A DNA stretch of 64,000 nucleotides from Dermatophagoides farinae (Eukaryota > Arthropoda > Arachnida > Sarcoptiformes > Pyroglyphidae). Shown here piece after piece: positions 6,577 through 30,912 of this stretch; position 1 is the first letter of the stretch, and every line of letters begins with the position of its first letter. The notes below the pieces were generated by a model. That model searched no databases and was not told the origin of the DNA. It saw only the letters and a list, made by a program, of their open reading frames with translations. The DNA lies in assembly GCF_024713945.1 (NCBI RefSeq), contig NC_134682.1:1116001-1180000 (forward strand). The letters are read 5' to 3'. A program made the position numbers and the translations under genes.

Positions 6577-8981
6577 TTATTTATTTTCAACAATTCTTAA
6601 TGATAATTTTTTCGCAATAAAATCATTCAACAATTGTTTACAATGGCCAATTGATTCATTCAATTTAGTGTTTATATCCAATTTAGTCTGATCATCTTTG
6701 TTGGCAATAAATTGCAGTACATAATCTTGACATTGTTTCATTAGCTGATAAATTTCATCATTAGTATCTTTTTGTAGAAATTGAAGAATTTGTGGCACAA
6801 ATTTTCCACTTGCATGTAACATATGATGATGAACCATTTGAAATACAAGCAATACAAGAATATGTAAACAAAGAATAGAATCTTGACATTCATTCAATTG
6901 TAACAAAAGTGATTGTTGATGTTCGGACAATATTGATTTCTCTTTTTTTGAATCAATTTTTTTGATCATCATATCAATTTTAACGGCACATTCGTCTAAT
7001 TCACCGATGAAAGTTTTCACTTCATTTGAATTCAGTGAATCATTTAGTTTGAGAAAATCATTTTTAAATTCCACATCAAGTTTATTGATAATTTTCGTGC
7101 GAGCTTCATGTGAAATATTTTCCGATAACAATTCTTCATTGAAAAATGAAATCAATTCATTGGCAATATCTGTTGCTAATGTTCGTAATAAATGTTTATT
7201 CAATCTGGATTGTAAATCTTTGAATGCTTGACTTGATGATTCACCAATAAATTCATTTGTTTTATTGAATAACAATATTTTTGAATATGTTGAATTGACA
7301 AAACACTGTAATTCAGCAAAACTTTTCTTCGATTTATTCATTTCAGCATTTCGTGTAATGAACAATTCTTTTGCATACGATTCATATGATTTACGTAAAT
7401 CTTCATATATTGATTCAGCAATCGATTCAATAAATTCATTCGATACATCTTCAGTTAGTTTTTCAGTCAAAACATTGATTACTTGTTCCATTGGAATGAA
7501 TTCCAATTCATTAATACCGGCATCATCTGGTTCTTGTTCCATTTTTTGTCCTTTTTGACCGGGTTTATATTTCTTTTTGACTGCTTTTGTTTTCACTTCT
7601 CGTCTTTGAGTTGCACCACCACCACCGCTACCAGTACCACCACCACCACCAGTGGAACTTTTTCCTCTGCCTTTTTTGCCACCATGATCATCTTTGGTGG
7701 ATTTTTTACCATCATTATCAGCATCGATAGATTTTGTAGCACTGTTTTTCGATTTGAAAAAATAATTTTGCAATACACCATTTTTCAAATCTTCTTCAGC
7801 TCTATCTTTTTTGATCTGTTCAAAATAATCTTTTGTTTGTTCCATAAATGATTTGCTTGTCACAAAAGTATCACATAATATTTCAATTGAATTTGAATAA
7901 TTTTTATGTTCTAATGTTTGTTTGATCAACAAATCGATATCGACCGATGTCAACACTGATGGAATCATGTCGAAAATATCAACAAATGATTTGTTCTGTA
8001 CAACATCTTCAAAATTGGTTTCAAGTTGAATGCTCAACATTTGATCAACAGCACAGGTATCAAGATAACAAAGTTGATCGGCAAATTTTTTCTTCAAATA
8101 TAATTGTGGATTTGAAATGCCTAATTTGGTCAAAGTTGAATAATCAAGATATCGATTATGTTTGAAAAAACTATTAACATATTCTTGTTGATTTTTCGAA
8201 TAAATATCCGGTATGAATGTTGATCCAGAAACAATACCAAGTATTCGTTTTTTGGCAAACAATTTATCCAATGTTGATGTTAGCATCTTGTCCGAAATAT
8301 TATAACGATTAATTATTGTTTGCAATGCAATCGATCTGGTTATGGCAGAAAATATTCCAATTATTTTTGATTCATATCGAGCAATATAATCATGAGTATA
8401 AATGATTCGAGCATCATTATCAAATTGACCTTGAATCAATGTATCTAATCGTTCTTGGATTAGATTGACAAGAAAATCAGCTGGTAAATCATATTGTTTG
8501 GATAGATCACCAATAGACAATGATCCAGTTTCTTGAAGATGTAAATCAATTTCAGATGCAAGATTATCTTTGTAATAACGTGAAACCAATTGGCCAAGTA
8601 CAATGTTTATTTCACCACCACTGTTTCGAGCTATTTGATTGGCAGTAGCTTCAGCATAGCTATAATCGACATTCAAAATGGAAACTAAATCCGGAATGGA
8701 AATCCGTCCACCAGCAGCATACAGTTCACCTTCAATTTCATATTTAAGATGATCGGCAGTCAAATATTCTTTACCATCATTTGTAAACAATACATTGATC
8801 AATTTCTTTTCGATTAATTTTTTCACAATATCAACACAATTTCTTTCTGAAAGTCTTTGCAAATGGATTAATTCAATTTTTTTTTGTCAATCAATTAAAC
8901 TTACTTTAATACCGAGCTCATCTGTTGAGCTCTCTGAAAATCAGAAGCCAATTTTTTCACCTCTTCCCAATTGGCAGCCAT
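6577..8981 (-). CDS. UFL1: E3 UFM1-protein ligase 1
   Basis: UFL1 transfers the ubiquitin-like modifier UFM1 to targets at the ER surface (ribosome UFMylation, ER-phagy). Exon 1, 8981-8905, encodes MAANWEEVKKLASDFQRAQQ then MSSVLK; a GTAAGT donor and an AAAG acceptor give exon 2, 8854-6577, starting LSERNCVDIVKKL. This spacing equals that of the human protein (ADFQRAQ...RLSERNC), which fixes the intron. The product is 784 aa (human 794). Recognisable blocks are GKEYLT, GGRISIPDLVSILNVDYSY, FSAITRS, FIPDIYSKNQ, a Lys/Gly-rich linker (about residues 390-440), and a C-terminal helical part with HMLHASGKFVPQI. Frame is open. The upstream 150 bp is duplicated at 9671-9828. Confidence 0.95.
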
Positions 8982-10066: not shown

Positions 10067-10430
10067 ACAAATAACGAAGAATAACGACAATGGTCTTCAC
10101 GAAAGCTGGCACTGCTTATGGCAGCGACATCAATCCGGAGCAGCTGAGAGAGGAAGTGAAAAACCTCATCAAACGAATCAAGTTAAATGATATAGCGTTA
10201 TTCTAAAGAATCACGTACAAGACGGTAAAAACGTTATACGACGACTACTATAAATGTAGTAGTAGGTGGATCATCGATGTATTGAAATCGGCATTTGAAT
10301 ACAGGTAATAATATTTGAATTGATGCATTTCCGGCCAAAATTACCAGATTTTTATTATTGCAGCAATTTGTTTTGAATTTTTGCCCTTCATACACAATGT
10401 AATTGTGAAAGTAAATCAAACACTGTTATC
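10067..10430 (+). other. Non-coding or remnant stretch before the copia fossil
   Basis: A short open frame from 10090 (MVFTKAGTAYGSDINPEQLR...) of about 38 codons has higher GC than its surroundings and no family I can name. The rest is AT-rich. Confidence 0.3.
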
Positions 10431-10439
10431 TCTTTTGTT

Positions 10440-12361
10440 GATTCTCGTGATTCAGTCATTACGTGTTCTTCCTGGTCGTTCAATTGTTGGTGTAAGTGTG
10501 GCACGCTATGAACCATCTACGTTCAATGAGGCTATTAATAGTGATGAATCAGAAAAATGGCGAGAAGCAATGGATAAAGAATATAATCAATTAATTAAAC
10601 ATCAGACATGGCAGTTAGTTGATAAACCAGATAATGAACCGATTATAACTGTGAAGTGGATCTTTACAATCAAGGACGATGGAAGATACAAAGCCCGTTT
10701 GGTGGCTCGTGGTTTTGAGCAATACTCAGATTCTTTAGATATTTATGCTCCTGTTGCTCAAATGGATGTGATTCGTTTATTTTTCTCGCTAGTGGCATCT
10801 TGGGATATGGATTTAATACAGTTCGATTGTTCCAATGCTTTCCTCAATGGTGATATTTATGAAACTGTATATATCGATCAACCGTTAGGATATGATGATA
10901 AAACTGGACGTGTTTGTCTGTTGAAGAAAGGTTTATATGGTCTTCGACAAAGTCCACGTAGCTGGAATCGGAAGTTTGATGAAGCAATTATATCTTTGGG
11001 ATTTCGTTCATCAACATTTGATCCTTGTTTATATTTTATTAAGAAGGACAATGAATTTACGATGTTATGTTTATACGTCGACGATGCTCTTTTGGCTTCG
11101 AATATACCTGGAAGAGTGAAAAGTTTATTTGAAGAAATTGGTCAGATCTTTGAGATACGTTCGGTCGATTCTTGTAAATATCTTGGCATTAATTATACTA
11201 GAAATCATTTATCGAAGACGATCATGCTTCATGTTGTAACGATGTATATGAATTAACATTATTGTATTGTATTGAATTATATTGTATGACATTGTTAGAG
11301 TTGAATAATAAATCAATTCGATTTGTGCTCACGTTGATTAAACACGTGTTATATTTTATTTCACTTTATCAATATGATTATCTTATTGGAAAATTGAAAA
11401 TGTTTAATATGGCTGAGAGTAGAAAAGTTGATACCCCTTTTGCTACTGGAATTGATCCGTATCAACAATCGTCATCGAATATGGTTTATCCTTATAGACT
11501 AGCAATTGGTGCCTTGTTATATCTTTCTTGCAAAACGAGACCAGATATAGCGTTTTGTGTCTCTTTGTTGGCACGTTTTGCTGATAAAACAACAGATATT
11601 CATGTTAAGATGTTGAAACGTGTGTGGCGATATTTATCTGGCACTAGACATTATGGGATTATACTTGGTGGTGATAATCTGAAATGTGTAGCTTATTCTG
11701 ACTCTGATTTAGCTGGAGAAAAAGAAAATAATCGAACAACGACTGGTCATATAGTTTTATATGGTGGCCCGATTATATGGAAAACAAAATTGCAAAAATG
11801 TGTTATCGACAACACAGCAGAAGCCGAATTCATCTCTGTGTCCGTTTGTTCAAAAGATGTCCGTTTCGTTTTAAATGTTCTCGAAAATTTGGAAATCCTA
11901 ATCGATAAACCAGTCATTAATTGTGATAATCAAGCTGCGGTGAAACAACTACTGGCTGAGAATATTTCTTTAAAATTGCGACATATCAATATTAAGTTTC
12001 TGATGGTTCGTGATTTAATTCAACGTGGTCTAATGTCAATTCAATGGATATCATCTGAAGAACAATTGGCGGACGTTTTAACAAAACCGTTAAGTCGAAA
12101 GAATCATATATCTTTTGTCGAGAATTTGCCATTGTATGATTTTGTCAAAACGGGGGAGTGTTGAAGTTGGTTTTTAACAACAATCATACAATCGTAATTG
12201 TAATTGAATTATTGAATATATATATGTCACGAAGGGGTCGTGAGCCAAAACGAAAAACACAACGGTTTTCCAAGAAAAAGAGAGCAACCGATCTAATTTT
12301 TGTATATTCGTTATTATTTTGTAAAAAATAAATAAAGAATTAAATTTTTATCGACGTGACA
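10440..12361 (+). mobile_element. Ty1/copia LTR retrotransposon, 5'-truncated fossil
   Basis: The translation shows the copia-type reverse transcriptase (DMDLIQFDCSNAFLNGDIY, YGLRQSPRSWN, LCLYVDDALLAS) at about 10530-11250 and the copia-type RNase H with conserved TRPDIAFCVS, AYSDSDLAG and LRHINIKF at about 11380-12140. A purine tract at 12148-12158 is followed by what looks like the 3' LTR, starting TGTTGAAG at 12159 and tentatively ending near 12361, with AATAAA strings inside. No 5' LTR, gag, protease or integrase is seen. The element is broken: large 5' loss plus about one or two further breaks. It appears moderately old. Confidence 0.85.
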
Positions 12362-12916
12362 TATATATTGTAGCTAGTTGGTTTTGTTACTATTATTAAA
12401 ATTTATTAAGTTTGACTAAATGTTCAATACATCTTTTTTTTTAAATAAATAAAAATTAATTTATTTCTGTGTTTTTTACAGGCAGAAGTAGTTATCAGAA
12501 CGATTTTTAAAAGTTATTTTTTTAATAAAAAAAAGATTTTTTGCGTATGGAACTAAAGAGCCGCAGCTTCACATCCAAAGAGCCGCATGTGGCTCGCGAG
12601 CCGCAGGTTGCCGACCCCTGGTTTAGGTGATAACTTAGCCGTTCATACTCAGATGTATTTGCAGATATTTTCCATTTTCATTTCACTTATAATTTCATGA
12701 CCGATTATGTTTGGATATCTGTTGTAAAAAAATTACCTATCGCAAGCTTGCAGTCGCAATAAAAAATAATCAAAACAAATGACATAAAAAAGGTTTATTA
12801 AAGTTTACACAACAAAAAGAAAAAACAGGTAATTTAAAAATTGAAAAAAAAATTCAACAACAACCAAAAAAAACATACCGAAGATGATGTGGTAACACTA
12901 ACCATTTGTTTTCTGT
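12362..12916. other. Intergenic between copia fossil and TOP2 paralogue
   Basis: AT-rich DNA with one hAT transposon end (separate entry). No coding region seen. The last 100 bases hold the likely 3' UTR of the TOP2 paralogue. Confidence 0.6.
12557..12620 (-). mobile_element. hAT DNA-transposon terminal fragment
   Basis: GAGCCGCATGTGGCTCGCGA followed by GCCGCAGGTTGCCGACCCCTG is, on the minus strand, the CAGGGGTCGGCAACC-type terminus of widespread hAT elements. The other end and any transposase are not visible, and no 8-bp target duplication could be matched. Confidence 0.75.
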
Positions 12917-15900
12917 TTAACGTTCATTTTTTTCCACGCGGTCAAGTTCTTCAACAAATGCGTCCAAATCTCTTTCCCATAGCATTTGTGGCGTGGAAAG
13001 TTTGAGATCTTCAAGCTCGGATTTTTTTGCATCGCGCTTCTTCATTAATTTATGAACATTTCGTCTTGACATTGTTTGGATTGACATATCGAAAATATAA
13101 TGAAAATCATATTTTTTTTCCTCTTCCGTTTCAGGCATTTTATCATCATTTTCGACGTCTTTATTTTCATTATTCGACGTTGTGTCGGGTTCATTTTGAT
13201 CGATATTAAATTCTTTACGCCATGCTTTCACAGGATCCGAATCATATTTCCGTTCAATCAATATCTTGACAAATTCTTCATCTTCAAAATCTTCCATAAT
13301 GATTTTTTTGTCATTTAAAATAAAACGTATTTGATTTTCTAGCTTTAATAATTCAGCTTTAAACATAGCTTGGTAGTATTTCTTTCGTCGAACATAATAA
13401 TCGAAACGAACGGAGAAAAATTCTCGTAAGATATCCAAAACTGAATCAAAATGGCGAATATTACCATTTTGATCAAACAAAAACATCTTTGAATTTGTCA
13501 TTTTTGTTAGTAATTTGAATTGTTTACGAATGCCAACGCGCTTTACATCTTCCAATGAGCTTTCATTCATTTCAACTAAAAATCTATTGAACAAAAAAAA
13601 ATTTAGGATTGAAGCTCTAGAAAAAAATTAAATCAAACATACTTTACGGTCTTATCTGTATGATATTCTCTATAATTATTAATGATTGCTGGTTTTTTTT
13701 CCGTACCATGTAACATAGGATCTAGCACTGTTTCCTTATAAACTTGAGTCCAGGTGCCAATCGGTAATTCGTTAATTTCAATAAATTGTTCACTCAATTC
13801 GGCAACTTCACCCTTTATAACATATTCCATTGGTGTCACTTTCTCCACGGTTCCTGTGAAACCTTTATACCATGGATTCATGTCCAAAGGTTCTTCATTT
13901 CGAAGCATTCGTTTAATATTTTCCACGATTGCTCGTGGATCATAATTAGGCACCTTAGAATTCCAACCAGTACCAATACCTTCGGCACCATTGATTAAAA
14001 CCATTGGAAGGATTGGAACATAGTATTCGGGTTCGATTTTAAGATTATCGTCATACTTGTAAGTCAATAATGGATCATCCATTGGTGGAAACAATTTCCT
14101 TGCCAATGGACTTAACAATGTGTAAATATAACGAGAACTAGCAGCATCTTTACCACCTTGAAGTCTCGTACCAAATTGACCAAGTGGTTGAAGTAGATTA
14201 ATATTATTACTGCCAACAAAATTATGTGCCAAATTGAAAATGGTTGTTTCCAAAGATATTTCAGCATGATGATATGCACTCAATTCACCGACAGATCCAG
14301 CTAATTGGGCCACCTTAACTTCACGCTTATCATTACGTTTGAAACAAGTATAAATTACTTTTCGTTGAACGGTTCTAAACCCATCTATCAACGATTGTAT
14401 CGTACGTTTGTTTTTCATATATGAGAATAAAAACAAATCATTGTTGATGAAATCTTTGATTATAACTTTCTGTGTATTATGTTCGTGAGAATAAATTGGT
14501 TTTTCACCATTATCGCGTCTTCTTCGACGTTCTTCCATTCCTTTTGTGAGCCATTCTTTTCTTGCTTCGATCATCTTCTTACTGAATGCCAATTCCAATG
14601 CTTTATCATCGTCCTCATCATCATAACAGAATTTGATACGGTGGCGTTCCATGTCAGAAAAATATTCTTTGATTTCTTTCGATGTGAAGGTACCCAAACC
14701 TTTGGACAAGCAAAAGAAAAAATTTTATAAAGAAAATTAAAATAAATAAAAAAAATACCATTGTAGTATTTTATCTTGTAGGATTTGTTGTTTTGTGTTT
14801 GTTGTTTCCATTCATCGAAATCGGGCAGTGAATAGAAGGCACGTATGTAACCATCTTTGCTTACTTTAATGATAGGAACAATAAATTTTTCAAGAAAATT
14901 TTTTTTAATTAGTGACGGCCAATTAATATGTATGAAATCAATAATCAACCCACATAGGTGTGATCCATCAGGATCAGGGTCTGCCATAATCATGAACTTG
15001 CCGTATCTTAATGTTTTTAAATCTTCAATTGTATTATATTCCTTCTTATATCGCAAGCCAAGAATTTCGATTAAATCATTGATTGCATTATTTTCCATGA
15101 TCTGTTTATGGGTCGCCTCCCGAAAATTTATCATTTTTCCTTGCAATGGATATACTCCGAATTTATCACGCCCAATAATATTGATTCCTGCAATAACCAA
15201 TGATTTGGCTGAATCACCTTCAGTCAATATAAGGGTACAATCCAGTGAATTTATTGTTCCCGCATCATTGGCATCTTCCAATTTCGGTATACCTTTAAGT
15301 TTACTGATTTTTTTCGAACTCAATTTCTTGTCCATTTCAGTTTGTTGTTTAAAACGAATCCAACTAAGGATTGAATCCACGATACCGATTTTCATGATTG
15401 ATGTGAAAAACTTTTCACTAGGCGCACATTTAGATCCAAAATTTTTACTTTGTAAAGTCATCGTTTCCTTCGTTTGTGAGTCGAATGTTGGATTTTCGAT
15501 AAGACAATTAACAAAAACCCACAGATGATTGCGTATTTGATGTGGTTTGAGATCTACTTTCGATTTTCCACTTTTCTTCTTGACCGTTTCGATTAATTTA
15601 GAAATAATTTGATCGGTGACATGATCAATATGATTACCACCACCTGTGGTAGCTATGCTGTTTACAAAACTAATTTGTTGGTAACCTTTATCACTTAAAG
15701 CAAGGGCGATTTCCCAACGATCATTGACAACTTCATGTGCCAATTTTAATGGTTCATTATTTCTATCTTTTTTATCTTTGATGAACAAATCAATGTAGTT
15801 TCGAAAACCACTAACAGGAAGACATTGATTATTAAGATAAACTTTCACATCTTTCAATGAGCCAGCTAAATCATATGCACGACGAATGAACAAATCGACT

Positions 15901-17025
15901 ATATCTTTATCTAAATGTGTCATATTGAATTTTTTCAAATCTGGTTTAAATGTCACACGGGTGAAATCACCTGTCGGTGGTCGTTTGATTGGTTCTTCAG
16001 CCGTTTGAATGTTACCATACCATACTTGTGAGAAATAATTATTATTCTTCCGTGATGATGTTTCAATCTTGAAGTATGTGCTAAATATATTGCACAATTT
16101 AGCACCATAACCATTCCTGCCATCAACAATTTTTTTGTCATCATCATTATAATCCGCCAATGATAATAGATGATCAAAAATCAATGAAGAAATATAAATT
16201 TTATTTTCATGTTGTATAACAAACGGTGTACCATGGCCATTATTGTAGACGACGATTTTATTATCTGCGCTATTGATATCGATACAAATACAGTTCATTT
16301 TCTTGTCACAAAGGTTATTATCAGAAATATTCACAATAAGGTCATCAAAAATTTTGTACAAAACGGGTACATATGAAATATCACGTAAAATCATTCCATG
16401 TTGACTGTCATAAACCCACAGTTGCTAATGATAATAAGATTTATCAATTAAATGATTGAATTCTTAATGATCAAAAGATATCTTACCTTGGTGACTTTCT
16501 CAACGGATCCAATATTTGGACGTAACAAGATATGTTCTATCTGACATGGCTCGTCTATTCGACTTTTTTTGACTGGTGGACTACTGCCTTGTGCCTGTGT
16601 GAATGGATGAAAAATTAGAAAATTAGCAGATTATAGAAGGATTTCATTACAATATTTCTGCAGACAAATTGATAAGAATATTTTGTTTGCAAAAACAATC
16701 GCCGTCGTTGTTGTAGACAAAATGAACAATTCAATGACATCCTGAGATTTTATTAATCTAATTAATCGAATTGGATTCATTCGATCAGAATTTTTCTATA
16801 CTAATAGCTAAATAATTAAAACAATGAAAAATTATATTGATGATGAAACTTCATCATCATCAACAGCATCATAAATGATATGATGCTAAATATATGTTTT
16901 ATATGGAAAATATTTGTATTTTGATTCCACTACCACTATCAACAATTTGATGATAAATTTATGATCAGTAATTTTCTATGAAAAACACGCATACAAACCT
17001 CCAAAGACAGTCGTTTATTAGACAT
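12917..17025 (-). CDS. DNA topoisomerase II paralogue, divergent and lacking the C-terminal tail
   Basis: Type IIA topoisomerases pass one duplex through another using ATP. Exons (minus): 17025-16999 (MSNKRLSLE), 16594-16487, 16424-14759, 14699-13643, 13583-12917; all GT-AG, phases join, 1174 aa with no internal stop. Recognised parts: GHKL ATPase with GRNGYGAK (about 148-154) and the DSQTKE loop, TOPRIM with LTEGDSAK (about 447) and D527/D529/D531 in DPDPDGSH, breakage-reunion domain with the active-site Tyr at about 791 (SRYIYT), then the coiled-coil and FVEELDRVEKNER. It stops there, so the roughly 350-residue C-terminal domain with nuclear localisation signals is absent. Odd residues: Asp73 where the ATPase general base is Glu in animal TOP2, RPNIGS for RPDTYIGS, Asn600 for Lys in YYKGLGT, GFRTVQRK for GLKPGQRK. 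Probably a fast-evolving second copy; activity uncertain. Confidence 0.9.
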
Positions 17026-26335: not shown

Positions 26336-26823
26336 TTGTACCTCAAAATTCGACCGTTTTATCAATTTGAAACTTTTAATTTGAATTTTTATTTTTTATT
26401 TTATCTTATAATAATTTTTTAATTTCCGGATTTATTCCGAAAATCAATAAAACAATCTTTTGCGTAATTGTCCGATTTATTTCACAAGGAATCATTCGTT
26501 TCAATTGGTATTTTATTCAATAATGAATTTTTTTTTTATTTTTTTCAAAAAAAATTCGTCACTTACGAACAGATCCATCAGACCAAATAAAGTTCCGAAG
26601 ATAGTGGTACAGAAGAATGGTGATAATATACCAACCAGTACTATTAATTTAAACAAACACCAACGTTTGAATTGAAATCAATGTTTTGGCGAATATATTC
26701 AATAATAATTTTAGTAGTAAAAATTCATCTGTTGCATCATTGATTGTTCACTGAATATAATATTGTTTGTCTATAAAATAATACATTTATTTTCATCATT
26801 ATTTTCATTGTTATATTTTGAAT

Positions 26824-29589
26824 ATGATGGCAAATAAATTAACTCAAAAATATCATCAACAACATTCTCAAAATATGAATATGCTACGAAATTGGAATCT
26901 ATCGGAACAAATTTTGGATCACTATGGCCAAAAGGGTATAACCCGTTTATTCGATTGGCAAATTGAATGCCTTCAATTACCTGGTGTTTTGGGCAAACAA
27001 AAAAATCTCTTATATTCTGCGCCAACAAGTGCCGGAAAAACAATGGTTGCCGATATCCTTTTGTTCAAAACATTATTGGAAAGGCGTAAAAAAGCCATTA
27101 TCGTTTTGCCATTTGTTTCGTTATCATTAGAAAAAGTGGAAAATTTAAAACCGCTATTCAATCAAGTTGGTATACGAATAGATTGCTTTGCTGGACAAAC
27201 AAATATTCGTGGTGGTATACAAGAAGTCGATGTAGCTGTTTGTACCATAGAAAAAGCAAACAATATGATCAACCGATTGATTGAAGATAGAGAAGTGTAT
27301 CGTATCGGCCTTGTTATTGTTGATGAATTGCATATGATTGGTGACACATCAAGAGGTTATATTCTCGAATTATTGTTATCCAAATTGATACACATGAAAT
27401 CAAATCCAGATATCGATCTTCGTCAGTTACAAATTATCGGTATGTCAGCAACGATACCGAATCTCAATGATATCGCCAAATGGTTGGATGCTGAATTATT
27501 TGTTACCGATTATCGACCGGTACCATTGATTGAACATATTGTGGCTGGCAATAAAATTCTCAAAATTTCGACAAATTCAATTCAATCACCAGACACACAG
27601 TTTGATTCATTAGCATCGACAGTTGTTTCAAGTGGTGGTCCGAGTAATGATGACAACAATGGTGAAATCGAATGTATACCATTGAAGACAATTGATTATA
27701 ATCAATTGAAATTAAATACAACTTTTTCTCAATCATTGATTTACATGGCCATTGAAACATTGGCTGAAGGATTCTCTACGTTGATTTTCTGTCCAACTCG
27801 TTCAATGTGTGAATCGATGGCGAAAAATATCGCTTCCAATATCTTTAGCATTGGCCAGAAAGATCGAATTCCACAGAATGATTTTGAACGTAATATTCGA
27901 AACAGTATCCATTCTGATCATATTCTATCCTATCAACGATTGGTTTCACTTATAAACACATTGAAACGTTCATCTTCTGGTTTTGATCCCAATCTTGAAC
28001 TTGTATTGAAATTTGGTTGTGCTTTTCATCATGGCGGTATGACAATGGAAGAACGTGGTACAGTTGAACAAGGTTTTCGTGATGGTACATTAAGAATACT
28101 TTGTTGTACAACCACACTTTCAACCGGTGTAAATTTACCAGCACGACGTGTGATGATCATATCACCATACGATTATTCCAGTAAACTATTGGCCGTTGGT
28201 ATTTATCGTCAAATGATTGGCCGGGCTGGACGTAAGGGAATCGATACCATGGGCGAAAGTTTTCTTTTCTGTTTGGACAAAGATATTAATATGGCTCGTC
28301 GACTTATTACGGCCAAAATGCCATCAATTAAATCGAATTTAATTACGATACAAAAATTGAATAATAACAAACCATCGGCAACAACAACAACAACTAGTGT
28401 TGGACAACAAATTCCAATTACATCTAATAAACAATGGGAACCTATAGTTAATGATCCAATTTTACGTGCTGTTCTTGAAGTGATTGCAAATGAAATGGCA
28501 AAAAATATCGATGATATTCATGTTTATCTTGGCTATACTTTTTTCCATAATTGTCCATTGAATTTATTGTTGGCATCTGAACAGCAATCACAAACAAATA
28601 TGGTAGAATTAAGAATGGAAAAGGTTGAAATCATTAATGAATGTATACGTATGGCATTGGATAAATTAAAAACTTATGAATTTATCTCTATTGATTCATC
28701 TGAAGAAGCGAATAACAGTAGTGAAACAAAATCGGTTGATTCATCATCACCAATTAATGTTACTGAACTTGGTCGAGCTGTAATAAGTTCAGGTGTATCA
28801 CCATCGGATGGCCAATTCATCTATGAAGAATTGATACGTTTCCGATCAAATCTATCATCACCGTTGCCTGACTTATATCTGGTATATCAAACAACGCCAG
28901 TGTATATTATAAATCAGCTTCCCGATATCGATTGGCATCATTATTTAAATCTTTATGAACGTTGGGATGAAAACACTAGGCATATAGCTGAATTGATTGG
29001 CATAAGCCAACAATTTCTCTGTATTCTGATATCAACGTCTGGCATGAAGACATCTACACAAGCTCAAATGCATCGACGTTTCTATGCAAGCCTGGCTCTT
29101 TGTGAATTGATTGAAGAAGTGCCGATGTGGAAAGTACAACAAAAATATCATCTCGATAAAGGAATTCTTCAATCATTGCAACAACAAGCATCCACTTTTG
29201 CCGGTATTTTAGTAACATTTTGTAAGCGGCTAGAATGGGAAACATTGGCCAAATTATTTGAAGAATTTCAACCACGACTATCATTTTGTGTTCAACATGA
29301 CCTCATTGATTTGGTTCGAATTCCATGTATAAATTCCATGATTGCTCGACAATTGCATAGTAAAGGTTATGAAGATATTTCATCGATAATACAACTTGAG
29401 CCAAAAGATATTGAAATTGCCTTGATGTCAACGAAAGATTTAATATCCAATAATAATAATAATGATCAAAATGATGCGCGTATTTATCTCTCAACAATTG
29501 ATTCTACTATAACCATATCCGAATTATCAAAACTTATCATTGAAGAAGCCCGGAAATTAAAAAAAAAAGAGATTGGGCAAGATATTTGA
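26824..29589 (+). CDS. HELQ: HELQ (POLQ-like) superfamily 2 DNA helicase
   Basis: HELQ is a 3'-5' Ski2-like helicase that acts with RPA and RAD51 paralogues at stalled forks and double-strand breaks. A single uninterrupted exon encodes 921 aa from ATG 26824 (MMANKLTQ). Motifs: Q-like FDWQ, Walker A APTSAGKT (66-73), DELH (167-170), SAT (208-210), LSTGVNLPARR, QMIGRAGRKG (about 462), then the winged-helix/ratchet part with WDENTRHIAELIG and MHRRFYASLALCELIEE, and a C-terminal HhH-like end (ARQLHSKGYEDISSIIQLEP). The pattern matches HELQ rather than the POLQ helicase half, and no polymerase domain follows. The N-terminal extension of about 250 aa in vertebrate HELQ is missing. AATAAA lies at about 29631. 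Confidence 0.9.
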   Translation: MMANKLTQKYHQQHSQNMNMLRNWNLSEQILDHYGQKGITRLFDWQIECLQLPGVLGKQKNLLYSAPTSAGKTMVADILLFKTLLERRKKAIIVLPFVSLSLEKVENLKPLFNQVGIRIDCFAGQTNIRGGIQEVDVAVCTIEKANNMINRLIEDREVYRIGLVIVDELHMIGDTSRGYILELLLSKLIHMKSNPDIDLRQLQIIGMSATIPNLNDIAKWLDAELFVTDYRPVPLIEHIVAGNKILKISTNSIQSPDTQFDSLASTVVSSGGPSNDDNNGEIECIPLKTIDYNQLKLNTTFSQSLIYMAIETLAEGFSTLIFCPTRSMCESMAKNIASNIFSIGQKDRIPQNDFERNIRNSIHSDHILSYQRLVSLINTLKRSSSGFDPNLELVLKFGCAFHHGGMTMEERGTVEQGFRDGTLRILCCTTTLSTGVNLPARRVMIISPYDYSSKLLAVGIYRQMIGRAGRKGIDTMGESFLFCLDKDINMARRLITAKMPSIKSNLITIQKLNNNKPSATTTTTSVGQQIPITSNKQWEPIVNDPILRAVLEVIANEMAKNIDDIHVYLGYTFFHNCPLNLLLASEQQSQTNMVELRMEKVEIINECIRMALDKLKTYEFISIDSSEEANNSSETKSVDSSSPINVTELGRAVISSGVSPSDGQFIYEELIRFRSNLSSPLPDLYLVYQTTPVYIINQLPDIDWHHYLNLYERWDENTRHIAELIGISQQFLCILISTSGMKTSTQAQMHRRFYASLALCELIEEVPMWKVQQKYHLDKGILQSLQQQASTFAGILVTFCKRLEWETLAKLFEEFQPRLSFCVQHDLIDLVRIPCINSMIARQLHSKGYEDISSIIQLEPKDIEIALMSTKDLISNNNNNDQNDARIYLSTIDSTITISELSKLIIEEARKLKKKEIGQDI

Positions 29590-30601
29590 TACAAGTTTTT
29601 TTTTTCTTTTTATTTTGTATGCATATATATAAATAAACGTTTTTTATTGACAAATAAATCGGTTTCTATTATCTTTTATTTGTTTTTTTTTCGAATATGT
29701 TTGATTTTTAATTGAATTAACAAATGATTTTGGAATTATGAATTATTTACAATTGGTATATTCGAACGGGAAAAAACGGAAAGAAAACAAATATTTATGC
29801 TCCAAAACAGATGATTCCGATTCATGATCATTTTTATTTTCGTTTATTATCAATAATTGAATGATTGCCATTTTGAGATAATTCAAAAACATTAGAATTA
29901 TCGAATTTTGATATATCAATCTTTGACCAATAATCGTAACTTATTTATAGCGTGCCAATGGTACCAATGATGATCTTGATGATGATTATATTTGGATTAT
30001 AATCACTTTATCCTCAATGTATATATTTATGATTGGAAGTTTTTTCGTTTCACCAGAATAGTTACAAGAATATGGTATTGGATTTTCTTTTGTTTTTTAT
30101 CATCATTGATGATGTCTAGTGGATTAATATTTTGATGGTGGAATTTGTTGTTAGTGTTGATCAAAAAAACAATCTTGTAAATGATTAATTATCATATTTT
30201 TTGATCATCATTTGATTTTTTTATTTTTTTGAGTACGTCATATAAGAATGGTGCGTGTGTGTGTGCGTCTTTTTGTGTGAGTCAGTGAGTTGATTGTTCT
30301 ATTAATAATAGTGATGATGATGAAACAAACGTTTCAATTCCGTTTTTGACTGAAAAGTGAATTTATTTTTTTCCACATTCTTATCATCATCATCAATCCA
30401 CCAGAATCAGATTGTTTCAAATCATCTATCTCAATAAATTCTTGATCGAACAATTCTACAGTTTGTTTTTTTGGTTTGGTTTGTATGATTTTACCCTTTG
30501 TTTATTATTTTTTTATTTGATTTTTTTTCATTAACGTTGTCTATTTTTCCTTTTTCCATAAAGGCACATTTTTGATTTTGTTTTCATTTCAGCATATTAA
30601 A
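29590..30601. other. HELQ 3' UTR and intergenic DNA
   Basis: AATAAACG at about 29631 and AATAAATC at about 29655 are likely polyadenylation signals. The rest is AT-rich; no coding region seen. Confidence 0.6.
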
Positions 30602-30912
30602 ATGTCCAACAATCAAGGTGATTATAATATATAATATAATAATACTTTTTTCATTAATGATATTTTATTTCAGATTTCGATAATATAATGTGTAATAATT
30701 TGAATGATATGGCTAATTCACATCATTCGATACCATCAATGTTGGATGGACTTAAACCTGGACAGCGTAAAGTAATTTATTTTGACATTCAACGTAATGA
30801 TGAAGAACTTAAACGTACCACACCAGAAATGCTTTGGGAGAAAGATTTGGATGCATTCATTGAAGAACTTGAACGTGTGGAAAAAATTAAACGTAAACAG
30901 CTCTCCGGATGA
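30602..30912 (+). pseudogene. Chimeric TOP2-derived mini-gene (84 codons)
   Basis: Exon 1 30602-30617 (ATG, MSNNQ) joins across a 56-bp GT-AG intron to exon 2 30674-30912. The product reads MSNNQDFDNIMCNNLNDMAN, then SIPSMLDGLKPGQRKVIY (start of the TOP2 breakage-reunion domain), then directly LKRTTPEMLWEKDLDAFIEE and LERVEKIKRKQLSG (end of the TOP2 coiled coil). About 500 residues that lie between these in TOP2 are absent, yet the frame is preserved. It resembles canonical TOP2 more than the paralogue at 12917-17025 (GLKPGQRK kept). It is either an internally deleted pseudogene or a new microprotein gene. Confidence 0.75.

Follow-up and report, generated by a model that had tools for sequence, protein, structure and literature searches.

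A divergent topoisomerase II paralogue of the mite Dermatophagoides farinae with altered ATP contacts and an unchanged cleavage core

The stretch analysed here (the window) comprises 64,000 nucleotides of contig NC_134682.1 in the Dermatophagoides farinae assembly GCF_024713945.1 and carries on its minus strand a topoisomerase II (TOP2) copy designated WIN (Table 1). Spliced, WIN consists of five exons encoding 1174 codons plus a stop, with GT-AG borders at all four introns, in agreement with the earlier note, which had described from the letters alone a frame running from the ATPase part to the coiled coil without a C-terminal domain. At an E value of 0.001 Pfam reports DNA_gyraseB, Toprim, TOPRIM_C and DNA_topoisoIV, human TOP2B and TOP2A lead the PDB matches, and the two comparisons together extend homology over the transducer, TOPRIM, winged helix/tower and coiled coil, which places the protein in the TOP2 family. 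The residues singled out in that note were all located in the translation: RPNIGS (residues 34-39), FDDLIVN (71-77, with Asp73 equivalent to E87 of human TOP2A), DPDPDGSH (527-534), YYNGLGT (598-604, containing Asn600), GFRTVQRK (707-714), and the active-site pair Arg790-Tyr791, equivalent to human R804-Y805. GFRTVQRK shares its L-to-F change with C2a, another TOP2 copy of this genome, and with human TOP2B (GFKPGQRK). About 750 nt downstream of WIN, a Copia-like reverse transcriptase/RNase H in two overlapping frames was recognised by eye.

Table 1. Features of the window (positions counted from its first letter)
Feature	Position	Strand	Remarks
TOP2 copy WIN	12917..17025	-	five exons
Exon 1	16999..17025	-	MSNKRLSLE; ATG start, GT donor
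Exon 2	16487..16594	-	contains RPNIGS (16505-16522), which lacks two codons of RPDTYIGS
Exon 3	14759..16424	-	GHKL, transducer, TOPRIM
FDDLIVN (exon 3)	16329-16349	-	
LLSLADYN (exon 3)	16146-16169	-	
FDSQTKE (exon 3)	15465-15485	-	
DPDPDGSH (exon 3)	14958-14981	-	
Exon 4	13643..14699	-	remaining TOPRIM-C, winged helix, tower
GFRTVQRK (exon 4)	14359-14382	-	
Arg790-Tyr791 (exon 4)	14128-14133	-	
Exon 5	12917..13583	-	coiled coil/C-gate; C-terminus ...VEKNER, stop
Near-identity tract with C2a	15253..15549	-	1 difference in ~295 nt, codons ~337-435
Intron 1 - exon 2 - intron 2 module	16425..16998	-	
Remnant of C2a exon 5 end and intron 5	12802..12889	-	89 aligned columns, 89.9% identical; preceding 366 nt of C2a absent
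AATAAA, possible polyadenylation signal	12794..12799	-	118 nt past the stop codon; read by eye
Separate TOP2 remnant ("mini-gene")	30661..30912	+	internal deletion
Remnant with matching flank	30228-30912		
UFL1-like gene (named by eye)	6577-8886		
Copia-like reverse transcriptase/RNase H	10324-12164		two overlapping frames
HELQ-like gene (named by eye)	26782-29589		

Animals generally have one or two tightly conserved TOP2 genes. The present genome (62.4 Mb, 22 contigs) holds about 30 TOP2 places, grouped by the analyst from search hits and to be read as at least that many, since the search tool returns lower bounds. In what follows, contigs are labelled C1, C2 and so on, C7, C2a, C2b, C4h and C6i denote TOP2 copies, and L with a three-digit number denotes a TOP2 locus. 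The family comprises the canonical TOP2 (C7; 1702 aa, five exons), an intact second TOP2 (C2a; L011, C2:506-511 kb; 1409 aa, six exons) with canonical motifs and a tail shorter than that of C7, WIN itself, a distant full-length copy on contig C14, and some 26 partial copies. WIN is identical to C2a at 909/1174 positions (77%) and to C7 at 696/1162, while C2a and C7 agree at 905/1392; WIN and C2a also share an intron inside TVKFLV, between TVK and FLV, that C7 does not have. In a nine-row tree, which includes neither L020 nor L030, WIN, C2a and three partial copies cluster together (100/100) and adjoin C7 (90/93). The proposal that WIN is an additional TOP2 and that a canonical enzyme is encoded elsewhere is supported, the latter by C7, and WIN is not the only TOP2 of the genome.

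The partial copies include L013, L015, L016, L020 and L029-L036, some with common flanks and breakpoints. L015 and L016, on opposite strands, are 96% identical over 2.5 kb, L035 and L036 are 98% identical over 2.2 kb, and L030-L032 (C3:6418, 6428 and 6725 kb) are three 98-99% identical N-terminal pieces of the canonical TOP2, 85% identical to C7 and lying inside larger repeats. In the window, the flank of the separate TOP2 remnant is 89-95% identical to sequence adjoining the TOP2 breakpoint of L015/L016, which suggests the copying of rearranged units. TOP1, used as a control, gives a single match in the genome; copying is nevertheless not confined to TOP2, because extra copies, partial or near-full, also exist for the UFL1-like gene of the window (one partial, 93% identical, at C6:1271 kb) and for its HELQ-like gene (83-90% identical, at C1:4768 kb and C6:4049 kb). 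A scan of the viral_contigs set for related loci returned none.

The tail of WIN ends abruptly. C2a extends 227 codons beyond the point where WIN stops; the codon after VEKNER is TAA in WIN and GAA in C2a, and directly after this stop 366 nt of C2a are missing, with about 26 other nucleotides in their place, followed by an 88-nt remnant. The last C2a exon gave no match. The loss of the tail therefore involved a stop together with one or more missing stretches; a single clean deletion is unsupported: the stop aligns with the GAA of C2a just before the missing 366 nt, and the last exon is likewise unmatched. Because translation ends after NER, WIN has no C-terminal tail with nuclear localisation signals, for which the KKSR cluster near its N-terminus could be a substitute.

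Superimposed on this structure is a mosaic of sequence similarity. Over the whole coding sequence WIN and C2a differ by 16% (572 nt differences in total), whereas the near-identity tract in exon 3 contains identical runs of 150 and 146 nt, against a longest run of 73 in 2000 shuffles; from this pattern, the tract is read as a recent gene conversion with C2a. The module composed of intron 1, exon 2 and intron 2 is likewise read as a product of gene conversion. Identity to L036 is 97.5% in intron 1, 100% in exon 2 (108/108 nt) and 98.4% in intron 2; for L035 the corresponding values are 97.5%, 91.7% (9-nt gap) and 100%. At the start of exon 3, by comparison, identity to either copy is 75.3%. RPNIGS is not private to WIN, since it also occurs in the partial copies L020, L036 and L035 (at two places in the last). 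L020 has a stop in the RPNIGS exon; L035 and L036 carry RPNIGS yet keep FDEILVN, so that the loss of Thr-Tyr and the E87D replacement were separate events.

The ATP pocket is altered. For TOP2B, PMC9592559 lists N136 and S165 as contacts of adenine and ribose, N107, K184, S164 and N166 as contacts of the phosphates, Q392 and K394 as contacts of the gamma phosphate, and E103 as catalytic; in TOP2A numbering these nine residues are N120, S149, N91, K168, S148, N150, Q376, K378 and E87. By this list, four of the nine are changed in WIN (E87D, S148L, S149A and N150D) and five are retained (N91, N120, K168, Q376 and K378), together with the G161-K168 segment, while C7, C2a and C2b have all nine intact. 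Glu87 positions the lytic water, according to PMC9400105. In addition, WIN lacks Thr49-Tyr50 (RPNIGS in place of RPDTYIGS). With the numbering shifted by 16, these two match T65 and Y66 of TOP2B, residues that PMC9592559 places in the lining of the dimer-interface drug pocket. The HATPase_c profile scores 15.7 bits in WIN, below the cut-off of 26.4, compared with 36.4 in C7 and 36.7 in C2a (matching parts) and 39.5 in C2b; exon 3 of C7 alone scores 19.3, the start of the domain lying outside that exon. A Bergerat ATP site with its catalytic Glu and full set of nucleotide contacts is therefore not present in WIN, and the alteration of the pocket proposed earlier is borne out.

The cleavage core, by comparison, is unchanged at all six positions checked (E461, D541, D543, D545, R804 and Y805), with the neighbouring R487Q, Q542P, Q544P and P803S altered. 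Further changes include R98C, I125T, G160D, P724T, G725V and Lys to Asn in YYKGLGT. Overall, 88 of the 611 positions identical in human TOP2A, TOP2B, C7 and C2a are altered in WIN, and the ATP contacts are affected more often (4/9) than the other invariant positions (84/602; P 0.029); set against the cleavage core alone (0/6), the difference has P 0.10. A focusing of changes on the ATP pocket, apparent from an excess of 23/70 against 7/126 (P 1.2e-6), weakens once dS is counted, the excess arising partly from gene conversion elsewhere, and the pairwise omega of the pocket (0.305) is not the highest among eight regions.

Codon models point to purifying selection on the WIN branch. In a three-sequence model, omega is 0.044 for C7 (whose branch is saturated), 0.10 for C2a and 0.25 for WIN, and fixing WIN at 1 costs a 2dlnL of 17.1. 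In four-sequence models, omega for the N half of WIN is 0.38 or 0.35 depending on topology, with omega = 1 rejected on the two of three topologies for which it was tested (2dlnL 15.8 or 5.5), and omega for the C half is 0.25 and 0.23 (2dlnL 44.9 and 44.2, best topology only); omega = 1 was rejected for the WIN branch in every test run. For C2a, omega is 0.04 in the N half (2dlnL against 1: 41.8 and 44.5); in the C half it lies at 0.08-0.20, and the C2a branch there is too short to exclude 1 (2.4 and 0.8). In the N half the omega of WIN is distinct from that of C2a (2dlnL 23.4); in the C half the two do not differ significantly (0.67). Among the other copies, C6i has an omega of 0.74, not different from 1 (2dlnL 0.74), C4h of 0.40 (14.7), and C2b of 0.37 or 0.19 (3.3 or 99.6).

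The strength of this constraint is uncertain, because omega depends on the yardstick. Pairwise comparison of WIN with C2a gives dN 0.128, dS 0.434 and a ratio of 0.296 (NG86), with 88/302 fourfold and 258/2257 zero-fold sites different. The introns, at which 69/556 positions differ, are slower than fourfold sites in the comparisons made; measured against them, dN amounts to 0.79 of the neutral rate with intron 1 as yardstick and to 0.94 with all four. The expectation of a dN/dS below 1 thus holds by synonymous sites, whereas by introns the ratio approaches 0.8-0.9, and a value near 1, which would speak against a maintained gene, is for this reason only partly excluded.

Retention of the reading frame by selection is firmer than the strength of constraint, and here the codon models and a neutral simulation uphold the earlier note. 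The introns of WIN and C2a differ by 12 indels, eight of them not multiples of three, while the coding gaps upstream of the tail are whole codons only (3, 2, 1 and 2). When C2a was evolved neutrally for an assumed 390 changes, a mean of 21.7 stops accumulated and none of 400 runs remained stop-free. With stops and frameshifting indels taken together, no more than about 17 changes could have come after the frame was lost (P 0.054). The WIN branch carries roughly 400, a total inferred from the three-sequence codon model, so that nearly all residue changes arose under selection on the frame. A simple pseudogene is not supported, in view of the lack of internal stops, the preserved splice borders and introns and the rejection of omega = 1; stops or frameshifts combined with an absence of constraint do not describe WIN, although the intron yardstick is less clear on the latter. 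Changes relative to C2a also avoid conserved positions, at which human TOP2A, TOP2B and C7 agree (113/687 changed, against 125/420 variable positions; P 2.6e-7). The open pieces C4h (78/286 against 53/206) and C6i (48/182 against 44/177) have no such bias, and WIN in the same C-half region has 52/328 against 74/241. The truncated C2b, however, shows a bias like that of WIN (84/423 against 72/225; difference z -0.5), so the bias is no proof of full-length function. The constraint seen on the frame and on conserved positions is a mean over the WIN branch as a whole.

With a probability of about one half, WIN is best explained as a coding TOP2 paralogue of the C2a lineage under relaxed constraint, impaired in its use of ATP, with the DNA gate kept, and originating in a birth-and-death family. 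On this reading, selection held the frame while constraint on the ATP half was relaxed, and the protein would still fold and dimerise as a TOP2, bind and perhaps cleave DNA, and bind or hydrolyse ATP poorly; with such poor ATP use, its role would be that of a weakly coupled DNA clamp, or of a subunit partnering C2a or C7, and not that of a complete strand-passage enzyme. The suggestion that ATP-driven strand passage has been changed or lost is in keeping with the altered pocket; a full loss does not follow, the E-to-D replacement being conservative and N91, N120, K168, Q376 and K378 being kept. The germline- or chromatin-specific function suggested in the earlier note is conjectural. A more specific version, which is rather doubtful, holds that WIN is a pseudo-ATPase topoisomerase II that retained its DNA-cleaving gate and gave up ATP-driven strand passage, serving as a clamp or pairing with C2a or C7 in half-active dimers within a genome that repeatedly generates TOP2 copies.

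The main rival is recent decay, in which WIN was functional for most of its history, became inactive only lately and is now one more of the approximately 26 remnants; losing the tail would then have been a disabling event. This account falls short of an even chance but is a serious one, because WIN is one member of a TOP2 family that undergoes birth and death, and gene conversion, across the genome. It is favoured by the number of those partial copies, as grouped by the analyst, by the stop beside the missing stretch and the unmatched last C2a exon, by the intron-based ratio, by the partial or extra copies of two other window genes, and by the occurrence of exon 2 in L020, where it holds a stop. 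The few changes that could postdate a loss of the frame weigh against it, but some disablements could have been removed by conversion, observed here as the tract of about 295 nt in common with C2a and as the module around exon 2. Further points count against WIN as a working gene: 88 of 611 invariant positions are altered; the sequence is a conversion mosaic; the locus was chosen for being open, and C4h and C6i also hold open stretches; and its exon 2 has, as judged from the near-identical module, recently been common to pseudogene-like fragments. The remaining alternative, an active isoform in which Asp replaces Glu87, the other changes are tolerated and ATP-driven strand passage proceeds with different kinetics, would fit the retained contacts, G161-K168, TOPRIM acids and Arg-Tyr pair as well as an omega below 1, but is improbable given the altered side chains at S148, S149 and N150, the missing Thr49-Tyr50, an HATPase_c score below a cut-off that C7 and C2a pass, and the effect of S165R in TOP2B (equivalent to S149 of TOP2A), cited in PMC9592559 as lowering ATPase activity.

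WIN resembles canonical TOP2 (human TOP2A and TOP2B, and C7) in its domain order up to the C-gate and in its cleavage-core residues, and differs from it in four of nine ATP contacts, the missing Thr-Tyr of RPDTYIGS and the absent C-terminal tail. It is linked to C2a by 77% sequence identity, by the common intron and by the apparent gene conversion between the two; unlike WIN, C2a retains its tail and the motifs examined, and its omega estimates are 0.04-0.20 compared with 0.23-0.38. In Caenorhabditis elegans, the TOP2-related protein CIN-4 has a role in chromosomes and is likewise a divergent paralogue beside the canonical enzyme; CIN-4 is not known to have any ATPase part, whereas WIN keeps its length up to the tail. 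Rec102 and TOPOVIBL, relatives with degenerate ATPase domains, illustrate how type II topoisomerase parts can be reused without ATP turnover, and serve as precedent only, as they belong to a different, topo VI-like family for which no homology to WIN is claimed. Literature searches turned up no recognised paper on mite TOP2 paralogues among the matches listed, and the word "topoisomerase" is absent from the main text of PMC12105342, of PMC8175442 and of PMC6806590. The coexistence of a canonical TOP2, a second intact TOP2, one with an altered ATP site in a frame maintained by selection, and about 26 sequence-exchanging remnants amounts to a natural experiment on which parts of strand passage can be lost separately, and if WIN is expressed, an ATP-independent role of TOP2 becomes directly testable.

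The distant copy on contig C14 (L010, C14:400-405 kb) is a full-length TOP2 in one open frame, forms a long branch that falls outside the animal sequences in the tree and lies near other long open frames; it perhaps derives from another eukaryote or from a contaminant.
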